From Methanococcoides sp. AM1 (lineage in GTDB: Archaea; Halobacteriota; Methanosarcinia; Methanosarcinales; Methanosarcinaceae): a stretch of DNA of 64,000 bases. Of the stretch, positions 10,053 to 14,856 are shown one piece after another. Every line of letters starts with the position of its first letter. Within the stretch, counting starts at the first letter, position 1. The translations under genes were made by a program, and so were the position numbers. The notes below the pieces were generated by a model, which did not search any database, was not told where the DNA came from, and worked only from the letters and a program-made list of their open reading frames with translations. The DNA is taken from the NCBI RefSeq assembly GCF_900774055.1, contig NZ_CAAGSW010000001.1:79797-143796 (forward strand), written 5' to 3'.

Positions 10053-10089
10053 TTCCAGGTAAGCCCCAAGCAACAGAGGCTTACTGGAA
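10053..10089. terminator. Bidirectional hairpin between hisB and the convergent MutS-like gene
   Basis: TTCCAG-GTAAGCC pairs with GGCTTAC-TGGAA across a 12-nt loop, with one bulged base. TTTTTCTTTT follows on the plus strand. The 3' arm contains the stop codon of the minus-strand gene (10081-10083). Confidence 0.6.
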
Positions 10090-12210
10090 TTTTTCTTTTA
10101 GTTTCCTATAGAACTCCTGTTCAATACCATCAGATCTTCTTGATAGCCTTTCAACTATGAGCTCAGGTGTGCTCTTTGCCACATAATTATATCTCGGGGT
10201 CCTCTCAACGATCAAGTTAAGGTCCTTGTCAAGACCACTAGCCTCAATTCCATCAACCCGCACAGGACATTCAGTATTCTCAAGAATAAGCTCCGAAAGA
10301 TGTGATACGAATATAGACATACTATTGCTGTTCTCTGAAAGGACCTCAAGGATACCACCGATTATCTTTGCAGATGCACCAGGCTCAGTAATAGATTCAA
10401 GTTCATCGGCAAGCACGATCTTGGGAGAATTGTTAGCAACTACCGAAAAATCAACAAGAGTAGTTTCAAATGCACCTGCATCCAGTGTTCCCTTGGATTT
10501 TCCAAAATAATAGAAACCTTCTGTAAGACCGACCTCAAGGTATTTTGCAGGGGTCGGGAAGCCCATATGAGCCAGAATTATGCATTGTGCCACCAGCTCG
10601 AGCATCGAGGTCTTTCCACCGGAATTCACACCACTCAATAACACAACACCGCTCTGGTTTCCATCGGGGTCACGTGTGGTCCCACCAACTGAGTAATCGA
10701 TAGGAACTACAGAACCATGCCGTGTTTTTATGAAAAGGTTCGTAGCATCTTCAAAGGCAATACCGGAACTTTCCATCAATTCCGGCATCTGGAGATCGAA
10801 CTCCCTGGCAAAACAACCTATAGAAAAACCGACATCGAAATCCAGTGCTTCACGCACCATCTTTTGTGCAATATCATGGTACATGGAAAGTGCCTTTGCA
10901 ATATTGCGTTTGTGCTGGACTTTCTTCCTCTGAATCTGGTTGGCTATCTGCTGCTTGAAGGCATAAAGCTGTTCCTGCTGCACTTCCAGTGGATGTGAGA
11001 TATCTTCAGGGAAGAATGATTCCAGAAGCAATAGCTCACCTTTCTCAAGACGAAGTTCGCTTGAAAGTCTTTCCTTTGCGTCCTTTACAACGGAATTATA
11101 GGAATGATAAAGCTCCTTTTCAAGCAGGTCCTTTATCTCGATCTTACCATTCATGACCTGAAGCATATCCTGACCACTGAGAGTAAGTTTACTTTGTTCA
11201 AGACATGAATTAAGAGTCGCGTTTGCACCGGATATTACTTCCGAAACACATTCATCTACCTTATCCGAGATCAGAACAAGGCGATCTATCGCAGCATCTG
11301 AACCGGCTTTCACATCTCCGCTACCATCAATAAGAGAAAGTGTGCTTTTAAGGTCCTCAAGGCGATCATCCCCGACCTCCCCCACAAACCCGATCCCTGA
11401 TGTACGCAACATCTGTGCCATTAGTATAGTGCTTTCCAGTGACCCGAGATTCTTTGCAAAGAATGCGATCTCAAGTTCCGGCACCATGTACCACATATCA
11501 ACTTTCTGAATATCGGTCATGAACTCAGGATCAATGTCTTCCGGGAGATCAAAAGCCATGCATTTGTCATCTGCTGCTAAAACATGTGAATAACCTCTTG
11601 CGACATCCACAAATTCCCCGCCCCCCCTGACAAGCTGGACGTCCATCAGATCACCATATATCTGCTTTGCGACCTCATACTGTTTGCTGTCGGTCGTAAG
11701 TATGGCACGATCGCGTATTTTAGGAATTGCACATTTGCATTCAAGGGTTCTGATGCAGGACAGAAGGGAAACAAGATCCTGATTATCACCCATTATACGA
11801 GCTGTTTCCATATAGCCTGCTGTGGCTGTGCGTATTTCCTCTATCTTATCCCTTTTGCTTTCAGGATATGGAATATAGACATGCAGCTTATCCTTTGCAT
11901 ACTTTGTATGACTGAACTGCTTAATGATATCAAGAAGACGTTCATAGATATCAACACCCTCTTTTGTCTTTAGAAAATCATTCATGGTAACCCCTTCGAA
12001 CTGCGCCCGAACCTCATGTACTAGGGAGATGGCATAACGCTGACCGACACCTTCTACTTCGGATATACCTGCAATATCCCCACCCATAATGGCTTCAAGA
12101 GCAGCATTCTCACTGCCAAAATGGTCTTCAAACCTCTTTGCCATCTTTTCTCCTATACGCGGAATATCCTGTAGACCTTTCATAATTTCACCTTGTAGTC
12201 CATCGGTCAT
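10081..12210 (-). CDS. MutS-like ATPase with N-terminal helix-hairpin-helix
   Basis: A 709-residue protein. Residues about 10-70 contain two helix-hairpin-helix elements (LQDIPRIGEKMAKRFEDHFG and ISEVEGVGQRYAISL). A long central region has a helical, clamp-like composition. The C-terminal MutS-type ATPase has Walker A GVNSGGKTS near 530, Walker B IVLADELES near 600 and a VSHLSE switch-like motif. The mismatch-recognition domain I of classical MutS is not apparent, so this is an archaeal MutS-related family rather than canonical mismatch repair. Its ATG overlaps the stop of the upstream DUF4130-type gene (ATGA), making the two coupled. DNA repair or recombination intermediates are the likely substrate (inference). 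Confidence 0.87.
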   Translation of the reverse strand: MTDGLQGEIMKGLQDIPRIGEKMAKRFEDHFGSENAALEAIMGGDIAGISEVEGVGQRYAISLVHEVRAQFEGVTMNDFLKTKEGVDIYERLLDIIKQFSHTKYAKDKLHVYIPYPESKRDKIEEIRTATAGYMETARIMGDNQDLVSLLSCIRTLECKCAIPKIRDRAILTTDSKQYEVAKQIYGDLMDVQLVRGGGEFVDVARGYSHVLAADDKCMAFDLPEDIDPEFMTDIQKVDMWYMVPELEIAFFAKNLGSLESTILMAQMLRTSGIGFVGEVGDDRLEDLKSTLSLIDGSGDVKAGSDAAIDRLVLISDKVDECVSEVISGANATLNSCLEQSKLTLSGQDMLQVMNGKIEIKDLLEKELYHSYNSVVKDAKERLSSELRLEKGELLLLESFFPEDISHPLEVQQEQLYAFKQQIANQIQRKKVQHKRNIAKALSMYHDIAQKMVREALDFDVGFSIGCFAREFDLQMPELMESSGIAFEDATNLFIKTRHGSVVPIDYSVGGTTRDPDGNQSGVVLLSGVNSGGKTSMLELVAQCIILAHMGFPTPAKYLEVGLTEGFYYFGKSKGTLDAGAFETTLVDFSVVANNSPKIVLADELESITEPGASAKIIGGILEVLSENSNSMSIFVSHLSELILENTECPVRVDGIEASGLDKDLNLIVERTPRYNYVAKSTPELIVERLSRRSDGIEQEFYRKLKEKFQ

Positions 12211-13040
12211 GCAAAACTGTCAAGCCTGCAATTTGCTATACCTCTCTCGACCTTGTATCGATCCCTCTTCGCCATCTTGCTCATTGAAGCTGAGAACTTT
12301 GGCTGCATCTTCTTTGCGAGACCGATGTTTCGACGTGATTCAATCATCTGTGAGTCATAATAGACATCCCACAGATCATCAACATCATCTGATCCTGATG
12401 TTGACTGGAGACTTTCAATAAAAGCTGCCGTTATCTTTGCAAAGCGATCAAGTCCTATGAGATCACCATTGCCCACCCATGCTGTGGAATTCACAATCAC
12501 AGCAACAGGAACATCGGGGTTTTTCCTTGCCAGCCAACTGCAGAAAAGCTCACCTATATCGTGTGGTGAATCGATCACAACAGATAATATCCCACCTTTG
12601 AACTCCGGCCGTGAGAACATGCATAGTCTTTCATATGCCCTTGACACATCGCGCATGTAATTGTAGTACCTTTTTGCAAGCCTTCCCTTGCCGGAATAAA
12701 GCTGATCAGTATCCCCATTGCATGAAACGATCAATTGTACCAGCTCAACCGGGTCACAGTCCTTGTGCCTAAGAAGAAGGTCCACATAACGCAGGGGATT
12801 CGGATCGAAACGTGCCATTCGTGTTTTTCGCTTGCCAAAGATCTCTTTTGAAAGCGATTCAGCCCTTCCACAAGGAGTGAAACCTAATCTCCGGACCTGA
12901 CAATTCGAACCTGAAAAACGAAGTTTACGATCAAGTTCCCCTACATCCTTTGCAAAGACCAGTTCAGCATCGGGATCATCCCTGAAACAGGAACATGCAA
13001 GAAGGACGCCATCCACAGTAGGATTAAAAGCTATTATCAT
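12207..13040 (-). CDS. TIGR03915/DUF4130-type putative DNA metabolism protein
   Basis: A 277-residue protein whose C-terminal half (from about FGKRKTRMARFDPNPLRYVDLLL) has features of DUF4130/TIGR03915, a family regularly paired with the radical SAM protein encoded upstream. No catalytic motif is identifiable by eye. The C-terminus is basic (KMQPKFSASMSKMAKRDRYKVE). Its ATG at 13040 overlaps the upstream stop as ATGA, and its own stop overlaps the next ATG in the same way, so three genes are translationally coupled. The family has no established biochemical function; a DNA-processing role is inferred from partners. Confidence 0.6.
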   Translation of the reverse strand: MIIAFNPTVDGVLLACSCFRDDPDAELVFAKDVGELDRKLRFSGSNCQVRRLGFTPCGRAESLSKEIFGKRKTRMARFDPNPLRYVDLLLRHKDCDPVELVQLIVSCNGDTDQLYSGKGRLAKRYYNYMRDVSRAYERLCMFSRPEFKGGILSVVIDSPHDIGELFCSWLARKNPDVPVAVIVNSTAWVGNGDLIGLDRFAKITAAFIESLQSTSGSDDVDDLWDVYYDSQMIESRRNIGLAKKMQPKFSASMSKMAKRDRYKVERGIANCRLDSFA

Positions 13041-14176
13041 GAACATGCCCCCATGAAAGATGCCAGATTTGCCTGCCTGGAACCGTTTATCGAAATATAT
13101 GGTCGTGCATGGGTTACAACAACACCCATACGCGCGAGCTCCTGCTCAGAGGCTATGGGACGTGTACGTATGATCCGGTTTGCACTTATCGGGCCGATCC
13201 CGGGTACCAGAAGCAGATCGGACATATCCGCAGAATTGATATCCACCGGGAATAGATCAGGTTGTGATTGCGCGAGCATTACTTTAGGATCAGAATTTCC
13301 AAGAAAGCCATGTTCATCATAGACATCATCAAAATCATTTGCCTTCAACCCATAATCCTTCAGCAGGAAAGACATCTGATACAATCTCTGTTCACGCCAT
13401 TTCGGTGATGGCTTGCCGTCCTCAAGCGGAGTGTCAGGAACAGGATCAAAGCTCATAAAATACGGTCTTCTAAGCTCATACTTGTCCATGAACTTATCAA
13501 CCGTCCTCACAATATCCTTGTCAGATTCCGACACCGCACCAACTACGAACTGTGTATCATTGGCTCCAACCAACCTGCCCATCCCAGAATACTCTTTCCT
13601 CTTCTTCTGTATGAGGTCCTTTGTCCATTTGAGTCTCTGGAGAACATCGTTCTTATAATCGAAATTCGGACATATCTCTGAGTAGTTCACTGAATTTGTA
13701 GTCTCTGCATTTACACCGAACTTGTTTGCATGTTCAGCTATTTGCTCAAGTAAGTACTTAGGAGTGCCTGGCATCACCCGTATATTGATGTAGCCTTTGA
13801 ATCCCTGCCCTCTCAAAAGCTCAACAACTTCCAGCTGCTTCTGTGATGTCTGCTCGGCGTCACCCATTATGCCGGAAGAGAGGAACAAACCCTCGATAGC
13901 ATTCCTTCTGTAAAAGGACCAGGTGATCTTTGCGATCTCCTCAGGATCAAGTGTTGCCCTCATTGTATCCCTTTCACAGCGATTCGGGCAATAAGCACAC
14001 TCTCCTGCACAGGAATTTGATAATAATGTCTTATAAAGTTGTATGCATCTTCCATCGGGACCGAACGCATGGCAGACTGCACTCTGGTTGCAGCTGTCAT
14101 ATTTAGTTCCTGAGGAGAGTAATTTCATCCTCTCCGATAATGTCAGGTGTTGTTCGTTCCTTCGTTCAGCAATCAT
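13037..14176 (-). CDS. Putative DNA modification/repair radical SAM protein (TIGR03916-like)
   Basis: From the ATG at 14176 the protein has 379 residues. The radical SAM cluster motif CAGECAYC is at 56-63, preceded by extra conserved cysteines (YDSCNQSAVC, GRC). Other family-like segments are LSSGIMGDAEQT and a FDPVPDTPLEDG stretch. The C-terminus has a helix-hairpin-helix (INSADMSDLLLVPGIGPISA), pointing to DNA binding. This is the radical SAM family that co-occurs with TIGR03915 or uracil-DNA-glycosylase-like proteins; its reaction is unknown. An upstream in-frame extension to 14257 is possible, but a TATA box at 14200-14207 supports the shorter, leaderless form. Confidence 0.85.
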   Translation of the reverse strand: MIAERRNEQHLTLSERMKLLSSGTKYDSCNQSAVCHAFGPDGRCIQLYKTLLSNSCAGECAYCPNRCERDTMRATLDPEEIAKITWSFYRRNAIEGLFLSSGIMGDAEQTSQKQLEVVELLRGQGFKGYINIRVMPGTPKYLLEQIAEHANKFGVNAETTNSVNYSEICPNFDYKNDVLQRLKWTKDLIQKKRKEYSGMGRLVGANDTQFVVGAVSESDKDIVRTVDKFMDKYELRRPYFMSFDPVPDTPLEDGKPSPKWREQRLYQMSFLLKDYGLKANDFDDVYDEHGFLGNSDPKVMLAQSQPDLFPVDINSADMSDLLLVPGIGPISANRIIRTRPIASEQELARMGVVVTHARPYISINGSRQANLASFMGACS

Positions 14177-14199
14177 CAATTGATAGATTGCAACATAGC

Positions 14200-14207
14200 T
14201 ATATAAT
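14200..14207 (-). promoter_or_regulatory. TATA box for a leaderless radical SAM transcript
   Basis: GATTATATAGC on the minus strand lies about 25 bp upstream of the ATG at 14176. That spacing would place the transcription start at or next to the start codon. No Shine-Dalgarno element precedes this ATG. Confidence 0.45.
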
Positions 14208-14253
14208 CGCCAGCCAAGCGGAGTGAAAGTATTATTTTCAAAAAAAGAGAAGA

Positions 14254-14769
14254 TCATTCCTTCACATGTATGTCAAGCTTGATCTTTGTGACAGGTTCCA
14301 GCTTCTTCCATTCTATTGTCGTATCTTCATCAAGAACACAGTTCTTAACAGATTTTTCCGAGAACTCGCCGTTTATCTCATAGACGTAAAGACCTTCTTC
14401 ACCATCTGTAGAAACAATAACTTCTCGATCGCCTTTCTTCTGGACTTTGATAGCTGCAACTCCACGAAGAGCGTCAAGTAACGTTGTACCTTTTTCTACC
14501 TCTATTGATTTTGTAGGTGCAAACACATTCATAGCAAGGTAAATATTCTCCCGGTTTGGCTTCAACACGTGAGTTTTCCCGAAGATCTTTCGCTCAACAA
14601 GGTCAGCCTCTTCTAATATCTTAACGTGCTTTGCAGCCACAGGCACAGAAATACCCAACATTCTGGCAAGTTCAGATATGTGCTTCTCCCCCTCATCAAG
14701 CAATTCAAGCATCCTGACACGTGTATCGCTTCCCAGGGCATGGAAGACTTTATTATCTAACTGACTCAT
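14254..14769 (-). CDS. ArsR-type winged-helix transcriptional regulator
   Basis: 171 residues. The N-terminus (KVFHALGSDTRVRMLELLDE, then ISELARMLGISVPVAAKHVKIL) is a clear ArsR/HTH-20-type winged helix at about 5-75. The C-terminal 90 residues (EVEKGTTLLDALRGVAAIKV...LYVYEINGE) resemble a small ligand-binding module with DUF4430-like flavour. No metal-binding cysteines are visible, so metal sensing is not supported. It lies immediately upstream, on the same strand, of the radical SAM/DUF4130/MutS-like run and may control it or itself. The target is unknown. Confidence 0.85.
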   Translation of the reverse strand: MSQLDNKVFHALGSDTRVRMLELLDEGEKHISELARMLGISVPVAAKHVKILEEADLVERKIFGKTHVLKPNRENIYLAMNVFAPTKSIEVEKGTTLLDALRGVAAIKVQKKGDREVIVSTDGEEGLYVYEINGEFSEKSVKNCVLDEDTTIEWKKLEPVTKIKLDIHVKE

Positions 14770-14856
14770 AAGTTTAAAGGGAGTTTTATCATATATAAAC
14801 TTGTTGTCACGCCGTTAACTCTTAACATATTTTCGTTATCCCCATGAAGCAGAATT

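Follow-up and report, generated by a model that had tools for sequence, protein, structure and literature searches.

The stretch analysed here (the window) comprises 64,000 nucleotides of contig NZ_CAAGSW010000001.1 from Methanococcoides sp. AM1. Its minus strand carries, in reading order, genes for an ArsR-type helix-turn-helix (HTH) regulator, a radical S-adenosylmethionine (SAM) protein (rSAM), a DUF4130 protein and a MutS-like ATPase (MutSL). Downstream, and convergent with these, lie hisG, hisA and hisB, whose names were assigned by reading the window open reading frames (ORFs). A first-pass annotation, made from the letters of the window, had described the rSAM, DUF4130 and MutSL genes as joined by two ATGA overlaps, and both are present (Table 1); the one between rSAM and DUF4130 is an ATGA with the second methionine of DUF4130 (13040) and becomes 10 nt long with the first (13046). 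A third ATGA, absent from that annotation, lies at 14254–14257 between the ArsR and rSAM ORFs. The helix-hairpin-helix (HhH) elements assigned to two of the three products were recovered in rSAM and MutSL, the former above and the latter below the profile cut-off. The window rSAM and its M. vulcani counterpart share 98% identity. Our best reading of the locus is that rSAM and DUF4130 form a working unit, and that MutSL, an old gene independent of them, has come to share their operon.

Table 1. Features of the rSAM-DUF4130-MutSL locus in window coordinates.
Feature	Positions	Strand	Basis
TATA-like element, 30 nt before ArsR	14792-14799	-	consensus scan
ArsR-type HTH regulator gene, upstream of rSAM	14254-14769	-	ORF list; HTH_5 41.8 bits
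TATA-like element, 30 nt before rSAM M28	14200-14206	-	consensus scan
rSAM gene, TIGR03916-like, probable start M28	13037-14176 (ORF up to 14257)	-	283.8 bits
Second Cys site C56, C62-H63, C71; CHx7C form tied to DUF4130	14045-14092	-	alignment
CxxxCxxC radical-SAM cluster motif (C83, C87, C90, ORF numbering)	13988-14011	-	29/29 rows of A4
C-terminal HhH of rSAM, residues 338-375	13133-13246	-	HHH_3 28.0 bits, cut-off 27
ATGA overlap, rSAM stop/DUF4130 second Met	13037-13040	-	sequence
DUF4130 gene, predicted DHH-like fold	12207-13040 (alternative start 13046)	-	Pfam match and model
ATGA overlap, DUF4130 stop/MutSL start	12207-12210	-	sequence
MutS-like ATPase gene (MutSL)	10081-12210	-	Pfam and NCBIfam profile matches
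N-terminal HhH of MutSL, residues 13-67	12010-12174	-	HHH_5 24.5 bits, below cut-off 27
MutS domain V-like ATPase, Walker A GVNSGGKT	10267-10641	-	MutS_V 29.5 bits, cut-off 30.2

Across 93 rSAM loci, the CHx7C form of the second cysteine site goes with the partner gene: motif and directly downstream DUF4130 occur together in 76 loci and are both missing from 11. The motif stands without an adjoining DUF4130 in five (L093, L098, L101, L105 and L140), three of which (L093, L101 and L105) stop at a contig end; in L098 the DUF4130 gene is split, and L140 is a true exception. In L125 DUF4130 is present and the rSAM is cut off before the motif. Searching 35 genomes whole recovered DUF4130 in six, exactly the six controls, with 27 genomes holding rSAM only and two lacking both; among the 30 rSAM loci read, six had CHx7C and DUF4130, 23 had neither, one had the motif only and none had DUF4130 only. 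A tree of 49 rows needs six changes to account for missing DUF4130, at least five of them forced by well-supported branches, and CHx7C is missing too from all but one (L140) of the 12 rows without DUF4130, several of which are long branches. Some of these rows hold other cysteine patterns at that place, so an altered form of the site may persist. The rule linking CHx7C to DUF4130 suggests a meeting place of the two subunits, in a pair that occurs in archaea and bacteria.

The earlier description of rSAM and DUF4130 as linked, and as having no known reaction, is supported; a literature search by family names or by MutS/radical SAM operon returned no study of the pair and no reaction for it. One passage of PMC3765255 calls DUF4130 a predicted mutagenesis-related enzyme and links it to SplB-like rSAM proteins and uracil-DNA glycosylases (UDGs). 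The window pair resembles the TIGR03916/TIGR03915 pair, in which an rSAM with CxxxCxxC and a C-terminal HhH is followed by DUF4130, but a UDG is here neither fused nor adjacent and MutSL is added downstream. Its rSAM scores below the curated TIGR03916 (rSAM_link_UDG) cut-off of 343.5 bits, which 3 of 149 genomes of the class pass, and carries the other traits of that family: CxxxCxxC, the C-terminal HhH and the DUF4130 partner gene. The DUF4130 protein reaches the PF13566 gathering threshold of 27 at the margin (27.0 or 28.1 bits) and scores 17.5 bits with TIGR03915 (SAM_7_link_chp), against a cut-off of 112.25. The single UDG match of the source genome lies on another contig (G000:C2:503202-504243), away from the window operon, where it adjoins a RecJ-like frame of 437 aa that has a DHHA1 match. 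Two further observations concern pairing elsewhere: a DUF763 gene (L174 8099-9163), perhaps an alternative partner, overlaps the end of an rSAM gene without DUF4130 in G270, and in an f2 genome a contig of 4.1 kb (L177, G140:C223) carries a Methanosarcinaceae-like rSAM-DUF4130 pair, by transfer or binning error. A reading as an anti-phage defence system was rejected for want of PADLOC support: neither rSAM nor DUF4130 had a match at E 0.01, MutSL reached only 15.4 bits, and the ArsR matches were mostly regulators with a common HTH.

In the rSAM protein, C56 is present in all 29 rows of alignment A4, and C62, H63 and C71 in 27, the exceptions being two Anaerolineae loci (L129 and L139) without DUF4130 nearby. 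C196, invariant in alignment A1, varies in the wider A4 and was discarded as an additional ligand. The AlphaFold model (predicted local distance difference test score, pLDDT, 82.9) is closest to HydE (Z 18.4, root-mean-square deviation (rmsd) 2.2, 212 aligned, residues 67-301), lipoyl synthase (Z 18.4, rmsd 3.2, 225 aligned, residues 38-301; human LIAS 17.8), BioB, PylB and ThiH, the last being also the second NCBIfam match (36.7 bits). Spore photoproduct lyase is absent from the Pfam, NCBIfam and fold match lists, an absence that excludes nothing. Lipoyl synthase shares the radical SAM barrel and likewise has three cysteines shortly before CxxxCxxC, a region that the fold match spans; according to a passage of PMC12246082, its sacrificial auxiliary cluster sits on CX4CX5C, ahead of CX3CX2C. 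Unlike lipoyl synthase, the window rSAM has an HhH and a DUF4130 partner, and the resemblance is one of the place of the cysteine site, not of membership. The C56/C62/C71 site probably binds an auxiliary Fe-S cluster.

The AlphaFold model of DUF4130 (pLDDT 80.6, residues 249-277 poor) suggests that the protein folds like RecJ and Cdc45 of the DHH superfamily, although the window protein has no DHH motif. VIA-align placed it nearest PAP phosphatase 8a8k (Z 11.3, rmsd 4.5, 206 aligned), RecJ 8y30 (10.8) and Cdc45 5dgo (9.3), and nearly all 50 rows of the list are DHH-superfamily entries. The likeness extends over residues 1-215; DUF4130 differs from these proteins in the missing motif, in a shortened N-terminal domain, modelled with three strands only, and in undetectable sequence similarity. 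Short archaeal forms begin after this N-terminal part. Because the DHH motif is missing, the protein would bind rather than cut. The predicted fold is the first structural hypothesis for DUF4130. In Methanohalophilus profundi the DUF4130 gene (L098 8185-9044) appears as two overlapping ORFs, through a frameshift or a sequencing error.

MutSL belongs to the MutS superfamily by its MutS_V match (E 9e-7), though the bit score is just under the cut-off, and Walker A is conserved as GVNSGGKT in 17 of 17 rows. The Pfam scan found no match to MutS_I, the mismatch-recognition domain I, and the first 150 residues contain no FxE motif. Neither MutS1 nor MutS2 accommodates it: the mutS1 profile gives 17.4 bits against 641.7, and MutS2 gives 46.6 against a cut-off of 400, with no Smr match. 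The closer comparison is with archaeal MutS5 (Haloferax MutS5a/b), likewise a MutS core ATPase without the mismatch-recognition domain, of which most sampled halobacterial genomes carry two such genes; the window gene differs in sharing an operon with rSAM and DUF4130. As cited in a passage of PMC11276520, Pyrococcus horikoshii MutS5 binds Holliday junctions, and part of PMC7776575 notes Haloferax MutS5 as uninvolved in mismatch repair. In the Haloferax gene-conversion assay, as far as the relevant passage of PMC11276520 reports it, survival was lowered in 16 of 22 deletions; six deletions without effect are named there, and neither mutS5a nor mutS5b is among them, so both deletions would, by elimination, be affected.

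The distribution of MutSL was followed in 149 genomes of the class and 216 of the phylum, all genome counts referring to the matches listed. MutSL is found in 146 of the 149 class genomes and in all 78 of family f1, taken as Methanosarcinaceae (one match being a fragment); rSAM is found in 49 of the 78 and missing from 29. In 47 of the 49 rSAM-bearing genomes MutSL follows on the same strand, 839–935 nt after the rSAM match, a distance that DUF4130 fills; for the remaining two genomes, G081 and G136, they lie on separate contigs. The first-pass annotation would have abandoned its idea had the MutS-like gene stood beside the pair in this genome only, with no phenotype in common. The operon is instead shared through most of the rSAM-bearing members of the family, and an order so repeated makes the layout far beyond chance. 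On a 42-row MutSL tree, the paired label is explained by a single gain and a single loss; the loss is at L044, where genome G008 retains ArsR, MutSL and hisB without the pair. A whole-genome search of G008 and G073 found neither rSAM nor DUF4130 elsewhere.

Beyond the family the association dissolves. Within the sampled flanks of 80 named loci, MutSL was not found near the rSAM genes of Methanothrix, Methanomassiliicoccales, Thermoplasmata, Altiarchaeales, Woesearchaeota, Micrarchaeota, Anaerolineae or Methanocella. From outside the class, eighteen genomes with the pair or with rSAM, a set without Methanothrix, were searched whole, and full MutSL was recovered in one (Methanocella), the other 17 giving less than 41 bits or nothing. 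Over the phylum, at E 1e-30, 131 of the 216 genomes have a MutSL-type match and 92 have rSAM; the full-length HhH-type MutSL occurs in 95, which divides the sample into 38 genomes with both genes, 57 with MutSL only, 54 with rSAM only and 67 with neither. The two are adjacent in all 26 f1 genomes among the 38 and in none of the 12 from two other families; in one genome (G189) they lie 10.6 kb apart. Families taken for Halobacteria have MutSL without rSAM, and several other families rSAM without MutSL. An obligate partnership of MutSL with the pair was accordingly rejected, and the co-occurrence across archaea, which the first-pass annotation proposed to check, stands within the family, as adjacency, and not over the phylum. 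From its presence in every f1 genome, its independence over the phylum and the equal synteny of hisGAB, MutSL appears to be a core gene of the class and to have entered the operon a single time. The role first suggested for MutSL, the lesion-recognition step of a repair pathway, is not supported: the gene is near-universal in the class, is kept without the pair, is missing from 17 of the 18 genomes searched outside the class and has no MutS_I match.

The probable start of rSAM is M28 at 14176. Residues 1-33 of the ORF have pLDDT below 50, relatives begin near M28, and a TATA-like element stands 30 nt upstream; the ATGA between the ArsR and rSAM ORFs is therefore probably spurious, and translational coupling of these two genes was rejected from the same positions. 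Promoter calls are predictions from a consensus scan for TATA-like elements, not evidence of transcription. Of 35 related loci, 32 have such an element about 30 nt upstream of M28-type starts (shuffles giving 7%), and upstream of ArsR it is present in 31 of 35 (shuffles giving 14%), so that the likely transcript, predicted from the scan, is rSAM-DUF4130-MutSL, with ArsR promoted separately. The regulator thus lies just upstream, as the first-pass annotation had it, and probably has its own promoter. The stoichiometric co-translation also proposed there is not conserved at the second junction: starts at –4 are possible in 30 of 38 named loci for rSAM and DUF4130, in 13 for DUF4130 and MutSL, and in 2 for ArsR and rSAM (ArsR being present in 31). 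With one cysteine and, towards its C-terminus, a weak DUF4430-like match (E 0.0015, below threshold), the window ArsR-type protein is unlike classical metal sensors.

Taken as a whole, the locus is explained tentatively, with confidence a little short of even, as a radical unit of rSAM and DUF4130 that would act on DNA, together with a MutS5-type clamp ATPase for branched or recombining DNA. Mechanistically, rSAM would cleave SAM at the CxxxCxxC cluster to form the 5'-deoxyadenosyl radical, would be held on DNA by its C-terminal HhH, and would abstract hydrogen from a DNA residue presented by DUF4130, a RecJ/Cdc45-like subunit without the DHH catalytic motif that would hold the strand for it. 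The N-terminal cysteine site (C56/C62/C71) would be an auxiliary cluster or a docking site, its CHx7C form working with DUF4130. Both proposals come from the motifs, the models and the neighbouring genes. MutSL would be an ATP-driven clamp on branched DNA that may bring the pair there or be merely co-expressed with it; its single entry into the operon would date to an ancestor of most Methanosarcinaceae, and its co-expression would serve DNA maintenance. Damaged DNA, suggested earlier as the target of rSAM, may be the substrate. Spore photoproduct lyase is a radical SAM enzyme that works on DNA, and a pair acting on DNA would be another beside it. For MutSL, two questions now separate: a core recombination-type ATPase, and its lineage-specific coupling.

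Several observations weigh against this explanation. The DHH-like fold comes from one model, for which Foldseek gave a best E of 0.001 and nothing below; hhalign of DUF4130 against eight RecJ-like proteins of relatives returned probabilities under 1%, as low as controls (a weak comparison of few, close sequences), Pfam DHH and DHHA1 had no match in 31 DUF4130 members (E 10), and a PDB sequence search gave nothing useful, so that DHH homology by sequence was set aside. The cysteine spacing of the window rSAM is CX5CX8C, against CX4CX5C in lipoyl synthase, and a zinc site at C56/C62/C71 would fit also. We infer the orthology of MutSL to Haloferax and Pyrococcus MutS5 from domain content and the two halobacterial copies; a place of Haloferax MutS5a beside an orc gene was not confirmed. 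A TATA-like element precedes MutSL in 2 of 31 paired loci (6% in shuffles) and is absent from 29; this is no proof that a promoter was lost, because 10 of 13 unpaired loci show none either (3 have one), and the contrast between paired and unpaired loci was dropped as uninformative. Over the 216 phylum genomes, MutSL and rSAM are independent (odds ratio 0.83, p 0.58, kinship uncorrected). Finally, in the synteny control, made on non-Methanococcoides loci with enough flank and including the Methanocella locus L103, hisG (31/34), hisA (32/35) and hisB (32/35) are as syntenic as MutSL (34/35), so that membership of one operon does not by itself imply one pathway.

The last two points also favour a bystander arrangement, in which MutSL adjoins the pair only because the stretch of ArsR, pair, MutSL, hisBAG and SAM synthetase rearranges slowly, with no pathway in common. 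The conserved block is larger than the operon, which makes adjacency alone weak evidence of a shared pathway; the two genes lie apart in those 12 of the 38 genomes that belong to other families, and unpaired loci retain MutSL by itself. We regard this as nearly as probable as the explanation above, and likewise somewhat short of even; against it, the order, strand and 839–935 nt gap hold in 47 of 47 assessable genomes, the junctions are short or overlapping in 38 of 38 named loci, and conservation stops at the other end of the block: in the same control DUF4130 is kept in 38 of 38 loci and ArsR in 36 of 41, but the next gene upstream of ArsR in 5 of 37.

It is rather unlikely that the pair has RNA or a small molecule as its substrate in place of DNA, with rSAM as a ThiH/HydE/BioB-like enzyme and the HhH binding RNA or protein. 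The nearest structures and the ThiH match are what one would expect of such an enzyme; the HhH matches, however, are retained in most scanned rSAM relatives without DUF4130, a B-family DNA polymerase gene lies within 3.5 kb upstream of rSAM in 4 of 4 Methanocellales loci (one Pfam-scanned, the rest by BLAST cluster), and the NCBIfam name together with the passage of PMC3765255 ties relatives to UDG. A more specific form of the DNA explanation, which we consider improbable, is a two-cluster radical enzyme that would insert sulfur or make another C–H change in DNA, a reaction unlike that of spore photoproduct lyase, with a catalytically dead RecJ/Cdc45-like subunit that would present the strand and either complete the CHx7C auxiliary site or dock there, and with a MutS5-type clamp to which it would be coupled at recombination intermediates in Methanosarcinaceae. 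Quite improbable, too, is a catalytic DUF4130, cleaving at the lesion as a nuclease or phosphodiesterase of the DHH type: the fold match to RecJ and PAP phosphatase would allow it, but the window protein has no DHH motif, and the N-terminal part is reduced in the model and dispensed with in short archaeal forms. Least probable is a role of MutSL as an ATPase that reactivates the radical enzyme, on the pattern of KamC, whose name assigns it that task for lysine 5,6-aminomutase. KamC gives MutSL its best NCBIfam match, and both would be MutS-type ATPases adjoining a 5'-deoxyadenosyl-radical enzyme, but the score of 75.6 bits is far under the cut-off of 300, MutS2 outscores KamC in a halobacterial relative (91.7 against 84.1), rSAM is missing from 57 of the 95 genomes with full-length MutSL, and the HhH N-terminus of MutSL points to DNA.

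Other genes near MutSL were recorded at a few loci. In Methanocellales a DEAD-family helicase gene lies near it in 3 of 3 loci (the one scanned having MrfA Zn-binding and HRQ1 domains), and an Orc1/Cdc6 gene (one scanned) lies near or beside it in both halobacterial loci; with the B-family polymerase near rSAM, these neighbours count in favour of the DNA explanation. One Methanocellales genome (L160 2683-17325, G189) holds MutSL, a hisB-like gene, polymerase B and rSAM-DUF4130 within 15 kb, perhaps the relic of an older arrangement, and in a Methanosarcina-like genome (L049 8606-15849) the genes after MutSL encode polyphosphate kinase and Ppx/GppA.

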